This document shows, piece after piece, positions 20,456-26,729 of a stretch of 64,000 bases of DNA. Within the stretch, counting starts at the first letter, position 1; every line of letters begins with the position of its first letter. Made by a program: the position numbers and the translations under genes. Origin of the DNA: Synergistaceae bacterium. Its GTDB lineage: Bacteria > Synergistota > Synergistia > Synergistales > Synergistaceae. The notes beneath the pieces were generated by a model. It ran no database searches. It was not told the origin of the DNA and was given only the letters and a program-made list of their open reading frames with translations. Where the stretch lies: positions 1-64,000 of the forward strand of contig JAUNJZ010000007.1 of assembly GCA_030533085.1 (NCBI GenBank). The letters run 5' to 3'.

Positions 20456-21220
20456 TTACTGGCCTTTCGCCAGTTCGTCCAGCCTTGCCTGTATTGTCGC
20501 TATCTCATTGTTGATGGCGGCGAGCCTTGCCTCTTCTTCGGCCTTGTCTTTGCGGAGCTTTTCCAGACGTTTGAGCAGGCGGTCTGTTTCAAGCCTTGCT
20601 CCGGTGGCTCCGGTGTACAGCCTCGCAGGATCGTCATTCTTTATATCCCAGAAGAATCTTGGTGAGCGCCCATTTAACAAAGAACTGAGTCCAGAACTTA
20701 ACTCTACGGTAACTCTGTCCTTGCCGTCAAGGAGATCTTTCCCAGTTTTTTCGTCGAATCTTCTGAAATATACAAGCCCTTCTTTTTTGCCCTGAAATTT
20801 GAAATTGAGACGTTTATCATAATCCGCAGGGTGATAAGACTTGTTCCCAACTTTCATCTCTATCATCTTGTCGAAAGGCCCCGGATAGATAGTTGGACCG
20901 TTATTTTCAAATTCAACGTTAATCGGAATCATTTCATTCAATTGCAGTGACTGTAGATAGTTATATTTAAATGTCTCCGTTTCATCCTTTGTCCACAGAT
21001 TTTTTTCCGCTTCGGACTGTATGAATGCCTCAATATACTCGGAAGAATAGTACGTAAGAGATATCGTAAGGTTTCCATCCATATCGTTATAGACATTTGT
21101 CTTTCTCCAGCGCTTTAAGATATTGTCAAAAGGTGATGCTTCGATTGCTGAGACAAAAACTGTCAGAGTCAACAATATAAGGGATAGCGTTACCCACCTT
21201 TTCAGCCATATGTCTTTCAT
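20456..21220 (-). CDS. Secreted coiled-coil protein, partner of the left porin (paralogue A)
   Basis: A 254-residue protein. An N-terminal hydrophobic signal (about residues 6-27) leads to a mature domain of about 170 residues with no family I recognise, containing the conserved EMIPINVEFENNGPTIYPGPFDKMIEMKVG. A Lys/Glu-rich coiled coil closes it (ETDRLLKRLEKLRKDKAEEE onward). A clear paralogue lies at 25977-26729 in mirror position. The two share about 50 percent of residues by eye and a nearly identical coiled-coil end. Being next to SLH porins, it may be a periplasmic or outer-membrane partner. ATG 21220 has GGAGGA upstream. A terminator lies between it and the porin gene, so it may be read by attenuated read-through. 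Confidence 0.6.
   Translation of the reverse strand: MKDIWLKRWVTLSLILLTLTVFVSAIEASPFDNILKRWRKTNVYNDMDGNLTISLTYYSSEYIEAFIQSEAEKNLWTKDETETFKYNYLQSLQLNEMIPINVEFENNGPTIYPGPFDKMIEMKVGNKSYHPADYDKRLNFKFQGKKEGLVYFRRFDEKTGKDLLDGKDRVTVELSSGLSSLLNGRSPRFFWDIKNDDPARLYTGATGARLETDRLLKRLEKLRKDKAEEEARLAAINNEIATIQARLDELAKGQ
20467..20590. repeat. Outer inverted repeat, left copy
   Basis: This 124-bp stretch encodes the coiled-coil end of paralogue A. In reverse complement it matches 26598-26721 at about 119 of 124 positions. The mismatches cluster in the codons for the R/K and N/D differences. It is the outer arm of a nested inverted-repeat arrangement centred near 23.6 kb. Confidence 0.8.
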
Positions 21221-21264
21221 ATAAAATTCCTCCAATCAGAAATGAATAGATACGCTGCTTAAAA

Positions 21265-21312: not shown

Positions 21313-22806
21313 TTAGAAGTTGACGACTGTACGGAAAAGCACTACGCTTTCTTTGCCATTATACTTATTGTTAGTAGCCTCACCGAAATCAATAGCGTTG
21401 TACGCAAGCCAGAATTTGATAGCCGGCGTGTACTGATAGCCGATTCCAACCATGTACTGCTTTGTATCGTCATGTCCGGTTACATCCCAATCAGTTGTCA
21501 TGTACTGCAGGAAGCTGCTCCACTTGTCATTCCACCGCTGCTCCGCAGTGATGAGCCATGTTTTGTTCGTTCCATCATTCGTGATGCCAGGCGCATTCTG
21601 AGCGGAACCGTAAACTGCGGGATAAACGCCAGCAGCCCTTGGTCCTACGAAAGCGTTATCCTGAGCGACATACTGCACATAGAGAGAGGTGAACTTGAGC
21701 AGATCCTGTTTGATATCGAGCATTGCGCTCCACGCCTTGGGGCTGTCGTCAAACGCATTCCAGTCTTTGCCAAGATCCTGCCAGTAGTAATATCCTCTCA
21801 GCGCAACCGCCGGTGTGAAAGCAAAAGAGGCGTATGCGCCGTACTGCTGAAGCTTATACTCGCCATCAACGTTATCGGGATCGAAGTAAATGCCCATCAG
21901 TCCAGCATAGAACTTCTCTGTGAAATTACCCTGAAGTTTCAGTCCATAGGTCATTCCATAATTGTTGTCCGCAGCTACAGCACCACCTATAGAACTCTTA
22001 TCATTGAAATTGTCGTTGCGGCCGATAAGGAGTTCGGCGTCAACCTTGCCCCAGCTCTTCTGGAAGTTGAATCCGTCATATTTGAAGTCCTTCCAGAGAC
22101 CGCCTTCATTATCACCCATTACACTGTGATAGAGTCCGGCATCGCCTTCCCAGTCGGAGTACTGACGACCGAAGCGGAAGTTGATATCATAGGGCAGCTT
22201 CGTGTTGACGAAGAAACGATCCGACCACCAGTTGCTGAGGTCTCCCTGGCCGTCGGCGCGGAAACGCCAGAAGAAGTATGTGTTGTCATCGATGTACTTA
22301 GTGAACATGATACGCGCATAAGCCATCGTGAACTCATTCTTCGCATTATTGCTGTTATATGTGTTCACACTATTATCCGCATCGCTGGCGAATTTCGCGT
22401 CGAACCACATATTTCCGTTAATCTTCCATCCGCCGAGACGATTCTCAATAACCGCGACTCTCTTGTCGATTTTGTCAACCTTCACGCCGAGCGCGTCGAG
22501 TTCGTCTTTGAATTCCATGACGAGCTTCTTCAGCAGTTCGAGATCCTGCTTGCTGGCCTTGCTGGCGTCGATATCAACGAGAGCGCGGGCTACAACTGAC
22601 GCTACTTCATAACGGGTAGCAGGCTGTGCACCCTTGAATGCGCCATCAGGATATCCTGATACGATTCCGCGGGAAGCGAGAAGACCTACCGCGTCATAGG
22701 CCCAATGGCCCTGGGGTACGTCCATGAACGGGTTTGTTGCTGCGAGTGCCGGAGCTGCGAAAGCGACTACGGCTACCATTGCGAGTACTGCCATAAACTT
22801 TTTCAT
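21313..22806 (-). CDS. SLH-domain outer-membrane porin (expressed copy)
   Basis: A 497-residue porin of the type found in Synergistota and other SLH-porin diderms. The signal peptide is residues 1-23 (ALA cleavage). The SLH domain is residues about 26-80 (FMDVPQGHWAYD, GYPDG, TRYEVASVVARALV). A coiled-coil spacer follows (about 81-120, ELLKKLVMEFKDELDALGV). The rest is beta-strand-rich with alternating aromatics and ends in Val-Val-Asn-Phe, the C-terminal Phe signal for BAM-mediated insertion. It forms a general diffusion channel tethered to the peptidoglycan layer by its SLH domain. Residues 56-120 are encoded in the inner inverted repeat. The leader is about 290 nt or longer, with AAGGGGG before ATG. 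Confidence 0.88.
   Translation of the reverse strand: MKKFMAVLAMVAVVAFAAPALAATNPFMDVPQGHWAYDAVGLLASRGIVSGYPDGAFKGAQPATRYEVASVVARALVDIDASKASKQDLELLKKLVMEFKDELDALGVKVDKIDKRVAVIENRLGGWKINGNMWFDAKFASDADNSVNTYNSNNAKNEFTMAYARIMFTKYIDDNTYFFWRFRADGQGDLSNWWSDRFFVNTKLPYDINFRFGRQYSDWEGDAGLYHSVMGDNEGGLWKDFKYDGFNFQKSWGKVDAELLIGRNDNFNDKSSIGGAVAADNNYGMTYGLKLQGNFTEKFYAGLMGIYFDPDNVDGEYKLQQYGAYASFAFTPAVALRGYYYWQDLGKDWNAFDDSPKAWSAMLDIKQDLLKFTSLYVQYVAQDNAFVGPRAAGVYPAVYGSAQNAPGITNDGTNKTWLITAEQRWNDKWSSFLQYMTTDWDVTGHDDTKQYMVGIGYQYTPAIKFWLAYNAIDFGEATNNKYNGKESVVLFRTVVNF
22450..22643. repeat. Inner inverted repeat, left copy (inside the expressed porin)
   Basis: A 194-bp arm that encodes the second half of the SLH domain and the coiled coil of the left porin. 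Its reverse complement equals 24457-24650 at 193 of 194 positions, the single difference being a silent GTG/GTT Val codon. Beyond the arm the two genes diverge at once. A perfect 16-bp palindrome, ATCAGGATATCCTGAT (22645-22660), abuts its outer edge on the recombinase side. Confidence 0.93.
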
Positions 22807-23235
22807 TACTTGTACAACCCCCTTGGTTGTTTTTTAGTTTTTTTTATTACGCAGAAGCTCTGCCTGTGGGGTTGCCGGCATCCGTACTCAAGTCTCCAAA
22901 GTTTCCTTGCTCTTCGTTTGCCGTCAGCCTTTTTAAGCTCTGCCGCTGCCTTAAAAATCTGCTCTCCTTTATTGGCGGGGGTTGGTTTTCACCTCTCTTT
23001 CTTGCCGTCCAGGGTCGTCGCAGAATTCCAAGCTATTTGGGGTCCAGATTGTCAAGTTGCTGTCAGAGACAGAATTTTCCTTTCCGCTCATCCAATAAGG
23101 ATTATAGCTACAATCATTCTCTGGCGTATAGGCCAATAGACCTATATTTACAAAATTCCCGCGCTGTCGGTCTGCTTTTCGTTATATTTTCTTATTTCGT
23201 TACACATATATTATACAACTCGGGGAGGATTTACT
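22807..23235. promoter_or_regulatory. Divergent control region of the porin and the recombinase (429 bp)
   Basis: This is the only non-coding stretch inside the invertible block. For the porin (minus strand) a TATAAT box lies at 23101-23106 without a good -35. That gives a leader of about 290 nt with several short hairpins (for example GCAGAAGCTCTGC). I could not match it to a known riboswitch. For the recombinase (plus strand) an AT-rich CATATATTATAC near 23205-23216 may be the -10 region. A TATAGG-N8-CCTATA inverted repeat (23127-23146) sits just upstream of the porin -10 box and could be an operator or a recombinase arm site. Confidence 0.5.
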
Positions 23236-24393
23236 ATGACTTCGCTTCATCTTACTCAGTCGGTTTGCAACAGGGCGATTCCTGGCGATAAGCGTTATGA
23301 CCTGCGGGATTCTTTTGTGCGAGGGCTTTTTCTTCGTGTCGAGGTTTCGGGGAGGAAGACGTGGTATTTATGTTACCGCACGCCGTCGCCTGAGAGGCGG
23401 CTCAGGAATAAGAAGCTTGTTTCCGCTGCTGTCGTTCCGCTTGAGGCTGCGCGCAGGGTCGCGAGGGATTGTCTCGCAAAGCTTTTTCTTGAGGGGGTCG
23501 ACCCGGCGGATTTGCTTTCCCGCAGGCGGCGCGCCGAGGGGCTGACGCTAGGCGCGCTGATAGAAGCATACGAGCCGTGGGTCTGTTCGCATCAGAAGAG
23601 CGGCGATGTTACGATTCGTATGCTGCGGCTTTTCACGGAGTTTATGGATATGCCGGCCGCCGCGCTGGATAAGGCGGCGGTGGAGAGGTGGCGGACGGAG
23701 AATCTGGGGCGTATCAGGCGCGCGACTATTAACCGCCGCGTCGCTGCTTTGCAGGCGTTATGCGCGTGGGGGGTGAAGCAAGGGCTTATCGAGGGGACTC
23801 CTTTTAAGCTTCACAGGCTGCCGCAAACTGATTCAAGGACTGTTACGCGTTTTCTGACGAAGGATGAGCGGGAGCGGCTGATGTGCGAGCTGACGGCGCG
23901 GGAGAATAGGCTGGGGCGCGATTATTTGAAGCCGGCGGTTATCCTAAGCCTGAATACCGGTATCCGAAAGGGTACGCTGCTGGGGCTGAAGTGGGAGGAT
24001 GTGGATTTTAATTCTCGGACGCTGACGCTTCGGGCCGCAATCATGAAGGGAGGCAAGGATGCGGTCATTCCCCTGAATAAAATGGCGTATGACGTTCTGG
24101 CAGACTGGCGCGATTACAGCGTAGGCGCGGCGGGTTTTATTTTTCCGGCGCGGGACGGAAACCGCCGCAAGGATACGGCGCGCGCTTTTATGCTGGTGGC
24201 GGCGCGCGCGAGGATAGGTAATTTCTCGTGGCACTGTCTGAGGCATGATTTTGCCAGTCAGCTTGCGATGGAGGGGGTGCCGCTGCATATCATTCAAAAG
24301 CTGTTGTGTCACGGTTCGATTACAATGACCCAGCGGTACGCGCATCTCTCTCCCAATTCTCTGGAGGCGGCGGTAAAGCTTCTCGTTCACTGA
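23236..24393 (+). CDS. Tyrosine recombinase/integrase (candidate porin invertase)
   Basis: A 385-residue phage-type integrase. Residues about 1-100 look like the DUF4102/P4-type arm-binding domain and residues about 104-190 the SAM-like core-binding domain. The catalytic domain has the full set R244 (NTGIRKGTLLGL), a beta-hairpin Lys near K271/K274, H333 and R336 (HCLRH), H359 (LCHGS) and Tyr Y368 (QRYAHL). It is therefore likely active. No excisionase, cargo or att-flanked island accompanies it. It sits alone between two inverted porin arms, which argues for a dedicated invertase and against a prophage remnant. The ATG follows GGGGAGGATTTACT. Confidence 0.9.
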   Translation: MTSLHLTQSVCNRAIPGDKRYDLRDSFVRGLFLRVEVSGRKTWYLCYRTPSPERRLRNKKLVSAAVVPLEAARRVARDCLAKLFLEGVDPADLLSRRRRAEGLTLGALIEAYEPWVCSHQKSGDVTIRMLRLFTEFMDMPAAALDKAAVERWRTENLGRIRRATINRRVAALQALCAWGVKQGLIEGTPFKLHRLPQTDSRTVTRFLTKDERERLMCELTARENRLGRDYLKPAVILSLNTGIRKGTLLGLKWEDVDFNSRTLTLRAAIMKGGKDAVIPLNKMAYDVLADWRDYSVGAAGFIFPARDGNRRKDTARAFMLVAARARIGNFSWHCLRHDFASQLAMEGVPLHIIQKLLCHGSITMTQRYAHLSPNSLEAAVKLLVH

Positions 24394-24428
24394 TTATCTT
24401 TCTGTTACACAAATTTTAAAAACAGCGT

Positions 24429-25835
24429 TTGAGAGCTGACGCCTGCTGTCAGGGCTGCGCATTCAAGGGTGCACAGCCTGCTACCCGTTATGAAGTAGCG
24501 TCAGTTGTAGCCCGCGCTCTCGTTGATATCGACGCCAGCAAGGCCAGCAAGCAGGATCTCGAACTGCTGAAGAAGCTCGTCATGGAATTCAAAGACGAAC
24601 TCGACGCGCTCGGCGTTAAGGTTGACAAAATCGACAAGAGAGTCGCGGTTCTCGAAGACGGCATCGGCGGATGGAAGATTCGCGGAACGTTCCGCTTTGA
24701 CGCGAAGTTCTCCAGCGACACCGACAACGGGGTGTATTACTACAACGAGAACAATCTCAAGAACGACTTTGAAAAAGAGCGTTTCCGTCTGTTCCTGACA
24801 AAGCAGATCAGCGAGAACACCTATTTCTACGCTCAGTATCGTACCGGCGCTGACGGAGCTGGGAAATACAACGACCTTAACGATGGTCGCGGTGACCTTC
24901 AGCACATGCGCTGGTCACATCTCTTCGTGAACACGAAGCTTCCCTATGACATCGACCTTCGCGTAGGACGCTTCACAGTTGACTTTGAAGATGACTATGG
25001 TCTCTACATTGACAACGACGCTCTCTTCGGTGACTTCCGCACAGACGGTTTCCGTCTCAGCAAAAAGTGGAACAACTTCAAAGCCACGGCTGTCGTGAGC
25101 CGTAATGATGGTTGGGAGTTCGCTGGTAAAACAGTCGGTGACAATGAAGGCAATATGATGAACTATACTCTCGACCTGAACTATTCTGTTGAGAGATGGT
25201 TCCTCGGTGCGACCGGCTACTGGTTCCAGTATGACGGCAGATCCGATCTTTCCCTCAATACCAATACCTATGGAATCTACGGCGGATTTAGCTTCACCCC
25301 GGCTGTAGCGCTGAAGGGTATTTACTACATGCAGGACTTTGATGAAGGTTATGGAAAGGGCACCAATGACGATCCTAAGGCGTGGAAAGCCATCCTTGAC
25401 ATCAAACAGGATCTTCTCAAGTTCACATCCCTCTGGATCGAATACTCACAGCAGGATAATACCTTTGTTGGATACAACGATCGTTATTCAATCGGCGGCG
25501 GCGCCTATGACTACGTAGGACGCAATATGGGTGTAGCAGCTGCTGGTGGAACCTCTAAGTGGTGGTTTGTAAAGGCTGAGCAGAAGTGGAATGACAAATG
25601 GAGTTCCTTCATCCGCTTTGCGAACGTTGATTATGACACAGCTGGACTTGACGACGCGACAGAATGGGGTCTCGGTGTAGGCTATCAGTACACGCCGGCT
25701 CTCTACTTTGAACTCGCTTACGACCAGGTTGACCACGGTGATTCTTGGAATGGCCTGCCCGGTGGTCTGCACAACAACGGCGGTACATATGGCAAAGACC
25801 ACGTTATCCGCTTCCGTACCAACGTCAACTTCTAA
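24429..25835 (+). CDS. 5'-truncated, silent SLH porin cassette (alternate porin)
   Basis: A porin homologous to the left copy but lacking the signal peptide and the first half of the SLH domain. Homology begins abruptly at 24457, the edge of the inner repeat (AFKGAQPATRYEV). The only start upstream is a TTG at 24429 that gives an odd Cys-rich leader (ADACCQGC) and no export signal, so the present orientation should be non-functional. The body is intact: a beta-barrel without frameshift, ending in Asn-Val-Asn-Phe. Joined to the 55 left-porin codons it would make a 513-residue porin. The exposed strands differ strongly from the left copy. It is retained as an open, selected sequence, not a decaying relic. 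Confidence 0.8.
   Translation: MRADACCQGCAFKGAQPATRYEVASVVARALVDIDASKASKQDLELLKKLVMEFKDELDALGVKVDKIDKRVAVLEDGIGGWKIRGTFRFDAKFSSDTDNGVYYYNENNLKNDFEKERFRLFLTKQISENTYFYAQYRTGADGAGKYNDLNDGRGDLQHMRWSHLFVNTKLPYDIDLRVGRFTVDFEDDYGLYIDNDALFGDFRTDGFRLSKKWNNFKATAVVSRNDGWEFAGKTVGDNEGNMMNYTLDLNYSVERWFLGATGYWFQYDGRSDLSLNTNTYGIYGGFSFTPAVALKGIYYMQDFDEGYGKGTNDDPKAWKAILDIKQDLLKFTSLWIEYSQQDNTFVGYNDRYSIGGGAYDYVGRNMGVAAAGGTSKWWFVKAEQKWNDKWSSFIRFANVDYDTAGLDDATEWGLGVGYQYTPALYFELAYDQVDHGDSWNGLPGGLHNNGGTYGKDHVIRFRTNVNF
24457..24650. repeat. Inner inverted repeat, right copy
   Basis: Partner of 22450-22643, with 193 of 194 positions identical in inverse orientation and the mismatch at 24617. The 63 bp between the recombinase stop and this arm contain a short CTGAC...GTCAG hairpin and no promoter I can see. 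Confidence 0.93.
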
Positions 25836-25976: not shown

Positions 25977-26729
25977 TTGAAAAAAATATCTTTACTATTG
26001 CTGTTCGCGCTGTTTCTCTCGTTAGTGGTGGTCGGAGTATCTTCCGCGGATACTTTCGACCAGGTTCTTCAGCGCTGGACCAAATCGCTCAAACATGTGG
26101 ACGAAGACGGCGGCAATCTGGAAGTCCGCGCAACTTATTACTCTGCGGAGTTCATAGAGGCGCTGGTTCAGAAAGAGGCGAAAGATAATCTTTGGACGCA
26201 ACAGGAGGCTGACGACTATAAATATAAGTTCCTCTCCACGCTCCGGCTGGAGGAGATGATTCCGATACAGGTGGAATTCATCAACAACGGCCCGACAATG
26301 CACATGGGACCTTTCGATATCATGGTGAAGCTAAGGATTGGGAGCAAAACCTATAAGCCTGCTGATTACGACAGGCGGCTGAACTTCAAATTTCAGGGCA
26401 AAAAAGAGGGGCTGATTTTCTTCCCAAGATACGATGAGAAAACGGGAAGAGATTTGCTGAAAGATGTAAAGAGCGTTCGCCTCGAATTTGCCCCTGCAAT
26501 AAGCCCGTTATTAGAGGGCAGGGAAATATCGTTCATCTGGGATGTGGCAAGGGACGACCCCAATAAGCTCTACCAGGGCACAACAGCGGCCAGAATAGAA
26601 ACAGACCGCCTGCTCAAACGTCTGGAAAAGCTCCGCAAAGACAAGGCCGAAGAAGAGGCAAAGCTGGCTGCCATCAACGACGAGATAGCGACAATACAGG
26701 CAAGGCTGGACGAACTGGCGACGCAATAA
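25977..26729 (+). CDS. Secreted coiled-coil protein, partner of the right porin (paralogue B)
   Basis: A 250-residue paralogue of the protein at 20456. It has a signal peptide (residues 1-24, VSSAD), the same conserved core (EEMIPIQVEFINNGPTMHMGPFD, NFKFQGKKEGL) and the same closing coiled coil. It starts at TTG 25977 with AGGAGG 8 nt upstream. It lies behind the right porin exactly as paralogue A lies behind the left one. So each porin has its own companion, and the pair may switch together if read-through of the porin terminator drives it. The function is unknown. Confidence 0.6.
   Translation: MKKISLLLLFALFLSLVVVGVSSADTFDQVLQRWTKSLKHVDEDGGNLEVRATYYSAEFIEALVQKEAKDNLWTQQEADDYKYKFLSTLRLEEMIPIQVEFINNGPTMHMGPFDIMVKLRIGSKTYKPADYDRRLNFKFQGKKEGLIFFPRYDEKTGRDLLKDVKSVRLEFAPAISPLLEGREISFIWDVARDDPNKLYQGTTAARIETDRLLKRLEKLRKDKAEEEAKLAAINDEIATIQARLDELATQ
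26598..26721. repeat. Outer inverted repeat, right copy
   Basis: Partner of 20467-20590 (about 119 of 124 identical in inverse orientation). With the inner arms it makes a nested palindromic layout. Recombination here would flip about 6 kb without joining new gene parts. Confidence 0.8.

Follow-up and report, generated by a model that had tools for sequence, protein, structure and literature searches.

A probable two-state DNA-inversion switch that would exchange the barrels of OmpM-like porins in a Synergistaceae bacterium

The Synergistaceae are gut and anaerobic bacteria that have received little study. We analyzed a stretch of 64,000 nucleotides from a member of this family (GenBank assembly GCA_030533085.1, contig JAUNJZ010000007.1, positions 1 to 64,000 of the forward strand), referred to here as the window, in which two SLH porin sequences flank a tyrosine recombinase gene. 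A preliminary description of this DNA had proposed that the locus is an inversion switch replacing one porin with the other. All the parts that it named are present, i.e., a complete porin on the left, a headless one on the right, and an intact integrase in the middle. The components, with their positions in the window, are as follows.

20456..21235, minus strand: partner gene of porin A, an open reading frame of about 259 amino acids with a coiled-coil-like C terminus
21313..22806, minus strand: complete OmpM-like SLH porin A (497 amino acids; Pfam SLH and PDB matches), signal-peptide-linked in this assembly
22450..22643, minus strand: inverted-repeat arm 1, on the porin A side, 194 bp, 193/194 identical to arm 2
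22642..22806, minus strand: putative mobile 5' end of the porin (start codon, signal peptide, and first half of the SLH domain; 55 codons), recognized by its conservation in relatives
22644..24456, no strand: 1,813-bp centre of the putative invertible segment (porin start, leader, and integrase), the sequence between the arms
23236..24393, plus strand: tyrosine recombinase (integrase), 385 amino acids, with the Pfam domains Arm-DNA-bind_3 and Phage_integrase
24457..24650, plus strand: inverted-repeat arm 2, on the porin B side, 194 bp
24459..25835, plus strand: silent porin body B (second half of the SLH domain, coil, and beta-barrel), without start or signal peptide, open over 458 codons
25977..26729, plus strand: partner gene of porin body B, an open reading frame of about 250 amino acids

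Porin A begins with what reads as a typical signal peptide, followed by a Pfam SLH domain at residues 26-69 (E 9.9e-11), and its best matches in the PDB were the SLH porin chains 8bys/8bym (E 1e-25), which carry the structure-library title OmpM1 of Veillonella parvula. Body B gave no SLH match of its own in the Pfam scan. Its AlphaFold model (mean pLDDT 77) has a helical stalk and an 18-strand assignment that fits a porin barrel, a Foldseek search with it returned many porins, OmpM1 included, and it is 72-77% identical at the amino acid level to signal-peptide-bearing porins of other genomes. The SLH match, the match to 8bys/8bym, and the barrel model together give the architecture of the OmpM family, which consists of a signal peptide, an SLH domain, a stalk, and a porin barrel. 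Barrels A and B differ at about half of their residues. Among barrels of this type, the mean identity is 0.37 in the long-side loops, 0.56 in the strands, and 0.77 in the short turns. This concentration of the variation in the long-side loops indicates surface exposure of the variable part, and points to phages, antibodies, or solute selectivity as its context.

Recomputation of the inverted repeat gave the same values as before, with 193 of 194 positions identical and both arms in frame. The sole mismatch, a G/T at repeat position 161, is a synonymous change, and in a repeat search the match between the arms continued at lower identity (87% over 313 bp). The inverted repeats are thus placed to exchange the expressed part of a gene: joining the 55 codons of the signal-peptide end to the right body gives an open frame of 513 residues with a terminal stop only. 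It follows that an inversion would hand the right porin the signal peptide without an internal stop or frameshift, as had been proposed, and the right body itself (24457-25835) is open over all of its 458 codons. Because a paralogous gene of about 250 amino acids stands behind both the left and the right body, the exchange unit on each side is a porin body plus its partner gene, which refines the earlier porin-only view. The two partner genes are 61% identical at the amino acid level, and homologs are found behind most porin bodies of the related clusters described below. Searches of Pfam and NCBIfam with the partner genes gave no match, and a PDB search with the one at 25977-26729 returned weak coiled-coil matches only.

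The integrase combines a catalytic domain (PF00589, E 5.6e-29) with an N-terminal arm-binding domain (PF13356, E 4e-9), the combination that defines phage-type tyrosine integrases with an arm-binding domain. The candidate catalytic residues R244, K271, H333, R336, H359, and Y368 are unchanged in seven orthologs. When 188 genomes of the phylum were searched with a profile, seven integrases matched at E < 1e-190, the next match being at about 1e-105. These seven form one clade (support 100/99), within which sister genomes of one genus pair, and they come from seven Synergistaceae genomes of five genera. Porins of this type lie beside the integrase in 7/7 of these genomes and were found at 0/10 other integrase loci of the wider family. 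A scan of genome contigs gave three integrase relatives, two of which are orthologs, both already in the genome set. This linkage to porins and the intact residues suggest that the integrase is the catalyst of the inversion.

We therefore read the locus as a two-state DNA-inversion switch exchanging OmpM-type barrels, a reading to which we give a probability of roughly 0.8. The integrase would recombine a core within the expressed porin gene, at codon 56, with an oppositely oriented core at the silent body, and a piece of about 1.8 kb carrying the leader RNA, the start codon, the signal peptide, half of the SLH domain, and the integrase gene would flip. One OmpM-like tether-porin would always be made, and its barrel, mostly the surface loops, would be exchanged (A for B and back). 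With more sites, larger inversions would reorder the bodies, and any of them could reach the integrase end and then the signal-peptide end; in relatives, the same machine would serve up to six bodies as a shufflon.

Clusters of this kind were compared in related genomes, designated here by handles such as G015. In G015, a single-contig genome, the cluster spans about 18 kb; one gene in it bears the signal peptide, and five bodies are silent. The six copies all begin at the same base, GCATTCAAAGG, and four of the five silent bodies are preceded by AT-rich DNA unlike that on the integrase side or the signal-peptide side. The same layout is found in G029, also a single contig. The preliminary description had placed the break in homology exactly at the repeat edge, and the relatives bear this out: in the integrase-linked slots inspected, homology begins at GCATTCA, the exception being the integrase side of G006, which has ACATTCA. 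The mobile 5' end of the porin is 98-100% identical at the amino acid level in G029, G015, and G013, though the barrels differ. If a shufflon is taken to have at least three mutually invertible sites, the window genome, with two integrase-linked sites, represents a two-state form, and relatives such as G015, with six, fit a shufflon. The comparison thus goes beyond the earlier account in pointing to a family-wide system growing to six bodies, equipped with candidate core and arm sites of the phage-integrase type.

A phylogeny of the barrel part only was used to follow the bodies between species. The signal-peptide-linked barrel of G015 is the ortholog of the silent integrase-side barrel of G029 (support 99/98), and that of G029 is the ortholog of a silent G015 body (100/100). 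The chromosome flanks of the cluster are collinear between these two genomes on both sides, and the segments in G029 are reordered and inverted relative to G015. Similarly, the signal-peptide-linked barrel of G013 groups with a silent body of G028 (92/93), and the silent barrel B of the window falls in a clade whose members from G026 and G029 are complete, signal-peptide-bearing genes. These sequence comparisons show that the signal-peptide end has changed its barrel partner between sister species and that, as anticipated, the arrangement is not frozen.

Decay of the silent copies, which the preliminary description had considered a poor explanation, was ruled out by the ratio of nonsynonymous to synonymous substitution rates (dN/dS). 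This ratio is 0.06-0.19 for pairs that include silent barrels, at synonymous divergences near or above one, which is indicative of purifying selection, and all silent bodies read are open save the integrase-side one of G028. A permanently silent copy should show neither such ratios nor open frames. The shared block behaves differently from the barrels. Over the first ∼195 bp past the repeat edge, a copy is like the other copies of its own genome and unlike its barrel orthologs elsewhere. For the two copies in the window, the synonymous difference is 0.02 in the shared block versus 0.73 in the barrels; between the shared block of this genome and those of other genera, it is 0.50-0.58. The copies thus exchange DNA within each genome.

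Sequence motifs were found at the positions where the integrase would be expected to act.

22622..22647, minus strand: candidate core on the signal-peptide side, GATGGCGCA-TTCAAGGG-TGCACAGCC, with the same 8-bp centre as the integrase-side core
23199..23219, plus strand: candidate arm-type sites upstream of the integrase start, GTTACACATATATTATACAAC, a conserved motif pair
24404..24411, plus strand: candidate arm-type site between the integrase stop and the core, GTTACACA, 55 bp from the core and at a conserved position
24453..24478, plus strand: candidate core on the integrase side, GGCTGCGCA-TTCAAGGG-TGCACAGCC, at the repeat edge

The cores of tyrosine recombinases usually take the form of 9-bp inverted half sites round a short centre. 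The integrase-side candidate has 9-bp half sites with an inverted match of 8/9 around an 8-bp centre, and a match of 8/9 or better arose in 0.4% of shuffles of the stretch. At the same place, the half sites match at 8, 8, 7, 8, and 7 of 9 positions in G000, G029, G015, G013, and G028, respectively, and at just 5/9 in G009 and G006. The arm-type motif pair before the integrase start also occurs in G015, G013, and G028 and is degenerate in G029. The GTTACACA site between the integrase stop and the core is at the same place in G015, G013, and G028, with a similar one in G006, and a direct repeat related to GTTACACA-N-TTATACA lies both just upstream of the integrase start and between the integrase stop and the core. 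The silent slots carry an arm motif as well: GTRTAA(C/T), in reverse orientation, stands 126-129 bp upstream of the core in 10/10 silent slots of G015, G013, and G028, nine times as GTRTAAC (shuffled expectation, 0.016) and once as GTGTAAT. It is missing at the expected place in both silent-slot ends seen in G006. A search of 53 genomes of the family for the core plus arm pattern recovered the known slots in G028, G013, and G015; scattered single matches in four other genomes were judged chance-like. In IMG/VR, searches with the integrase and with the porin found no relatives, and the 22 matches to the core pattern there encode neither. We read these motifs as putative core-type and arm-type sites to which the integrase would bind.

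Several observations weigh against the switch as described. Both arrangements are seen in a comparison between species, this species being represented by one assembly with one orientation. No arm motif was found near the signal-peptide-side core, and several of the ten silent slots are recent duplicates; some being near copies of one another, the effective number of slots with an arm motif is below ten. The signal-peptide-linked copy of G029 has a 1-bp insertion, and the integrase-side copy of G028 has one in-frame TAG. Finally, the whole 194-bp block is homogenised, which a fixed crossover does not bring about and which calls for recombination or conversion at two or more points. The homogenised block is also what speaks for RecA-dependent homologous recombination or gene conversion at the inverted repeats doing all the work, with the integrase as a passenger. 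We consider this unlikely, given that the left edge of homology keeps its exact position even where the DNA upstream of the slots is unrelated, that the integrase stands beside the porins in 7/7 genomes with invariant catalytic residues, and that the arm-type motifs keep a fixed spacing. The block does indicate that general recombination or conversion acts as well.

The single arrangement in this assembly would be expected of a frozen remnant, in which a past inversion left the right copy as a dead duplicate. Barrel B, however, has an open frame that evolves under purifying selection, the two arms match at 193/194 positions while the barrels are near synonymous saturation, and partners have been exchanged between closely related species, which makes such a remnant very improbable. 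We give just as little credence to the silent bodies being gene-conversion donors to one expression site in the manner of pilS/pilE pilin, without inversion. Many silent copies beside one expressed copy, and a shared block that evolves in concert, would suit this model, but the barrels appear to move whole with their partner gene, the segments of G029 stand in a different order and orientation from those of G015, and the candidate integrase-type sites are kept at silent slots. As the genome is a draft of 76 contigs and a 194-bp repeat could mislead short-read assembly, a single porin gene might also have been misjoined in inverted orientation. This would hardly account for barrels that differ at about half of their residues, each with its own partner gene, or for the same layout in the single-contig genomes G015 and G029, and we regard it as the least probable explanation. 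The observation behind the preliminary description is confirmed and its switching interpretation supported: the inversion switch is very probably real, conserved, and run by its own integrase, and flipping presumably continues within populations.

A wider view of the family is that a phage-type integrase lineage has been domesticated in the Synergistaceae as a cassette shufflon, with slot-specific arm sites that allow regulated barrel choice, i.e., a bivalent, lambda-like antigen switch on a tether-porin; we hold this at even odds. One end consisting of leader, signal peptide, and half SLH domain would be joined to any of up to six OmpM barrels. Because every silent slot would have its own arm-type sites, the order of barrels could be regulated, through bending proteins or excision factors, and not random.

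The putative invertible segment also carries the porin leader.

22813..23036, minus strand: conserved 5' leader of the porin, about 220 nucleotides, with a terminal hairpin that holds the Shine-Dalgarno sequence in its loop (conservation and covariation)

This leader is kept in 16/53 Synergistaceae genomes, including genera without the integrase. Its helices covary, with 97.7% of cells paired and a covariation score of 0.147 versus 0.091 in shuffles, and no fitting Rfam family was found, which makes it a candidate new leader RNA. A scan for promoters turned up no sigma-70-like site placed clearly upstream of the porin.

Further features were observed in the related clusters. The inserted base in the signal-peptide-linked porin of G029 is an extra C in the shared block (L044 11053-11150) that puts the gene out of frame; the gene may be in a genuine off-state or be a pseudogene, or the base may be an error of sequencing. 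A complete porin some 165 kb away from the G029 cluster (L126 7976-9526) has the same leader, the same signal-peptide end (100% amino acid identity), and an exact core, and could have arisen as a seeded copy. An IS110-type transposase gene and a helix-turn-helix gene resembling a second insertion element mark the left edge of the G029 cluster (L044 1891-4575). In G006 (L049 200-3650, C15), the presumed invertible piece measures 4.7 kb, and additional genes, about 3 kb in all, separate the porin start from the integrase. In G013 (L111 1-2760, C20) and G028 (L115 1500-4300, C76), two silent slots arranged head to head enclose a threonyl-tRNA synthetase gene, and this essential housekeeping gene may therefore be inside an invertible segment. 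Inter-slot spaces of G013 and G006 (L113 2710-4242, L116 2288-3244, and L117 1791-3077) contain HipA-like, Abi_2, and AAA_14/DUF4143 genes. Contigs of the draft genomes G013, G006, and G009 end inside the repeat, which would fit switching; simple repetition explains this equally, and these ends were not counted as evidence.

Parts of this arrangement recall known systems. The omp1 locus of Dichelobacter nodosus, reportedly described by Moses et al. in 1995, is said to have one expressed end and several silent outer membrane protein copies exchanged by site-specific inversion, a likeness that concerns an unrelated porin and organism. In Campylobacter fetus sapA, a promoter segment reportedly inverts in a RecA-dependent manner between S-layer protein genes whose 5' region is conserved; there too a segment inverts between surface genes with a shared 5' region, the output being a secreted S-layer protein. 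In the SusC/SusD shufflon of Bacteroides fragilis, the tyrosine recombinase Tsr0667 mediates multiple inversions that choose outer membrane protein gene sets with homology at the gene start (PMC4747536, PMC5729914). The resemblance lies in these traits. There, an invertible promoter comes to stand before alternative SusC/SusD genes, and many distant loci are further targets of Tsr0667, whereas here the recombinase lies inside the flip, the crossover would fall within coding sequence, at codon 56, an OmpM-like SLH tether-porin is the output, and the phylum is a different one. The vpma locus of Mycoplasma agalactiae likewise combines a tyrosine recombinase gene, one promoter, and several silent genes for surface proteins that have a 5' site in common, with Xer1 shown to be essential (PMC2268961), but its sites are in the 5' untranslated region, its recombinase is Xer-type, and its products are lipoproteins instead of porins. 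In Ureaplasma (UU172/UU171/UU144), inversion places an N-terminal coding part with the signal peptide in front of alternative C-terminal bodies (PMC3047005), as would happen here, in a mollicute without an outer membrane. The locus would thus be set apart from known switches by its arm-domain, phage-type recombinase, the place of this gene inside the flip, the crossover in coding sequence, and the OmpM-like output.

OmpM of V. parvula is built of an SLH domain, a stalk, and a porin barrel and ties the outer membrane to the peptidoglycan (PMC10628300). The window porins resemble it in sequence and fold matches, the tethering being known from Veillonella, which belongs to another phylum; phase variation is not mentioned in that paper. 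A read-based survey found inversions in one of two Synergistetes data sets, with species and locus unnamed in its main text (PMC5903667), and for this reason it may contain an earlier sighting of this or of another Synergistetes switch. The open literature on invertible DNA, phase variation, or porin inversion in Synergistetes or Cloacibacillus yielded nothing relevant beyond that survey.

The switch would be a surface-switching system in a phylum for which no such description was found in the literature, and it would act on a type of protein that serves another diderm group as outer membrane anchor and general porin at once. Swapping the barrel while keeping the anchoring half constant would be a neat way to vary a protein that the cell cannot lose, and probably changes the cell surface while the outer membrane stays anchored. 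The gain may lie in evading phages or immunity, or in a changed permeability. Across the family, the loci, with their candidate sites mapped, would form a natural series running from two cassettes to six or more, in which the evolution of shufflons from phage integrases would be directly testable.

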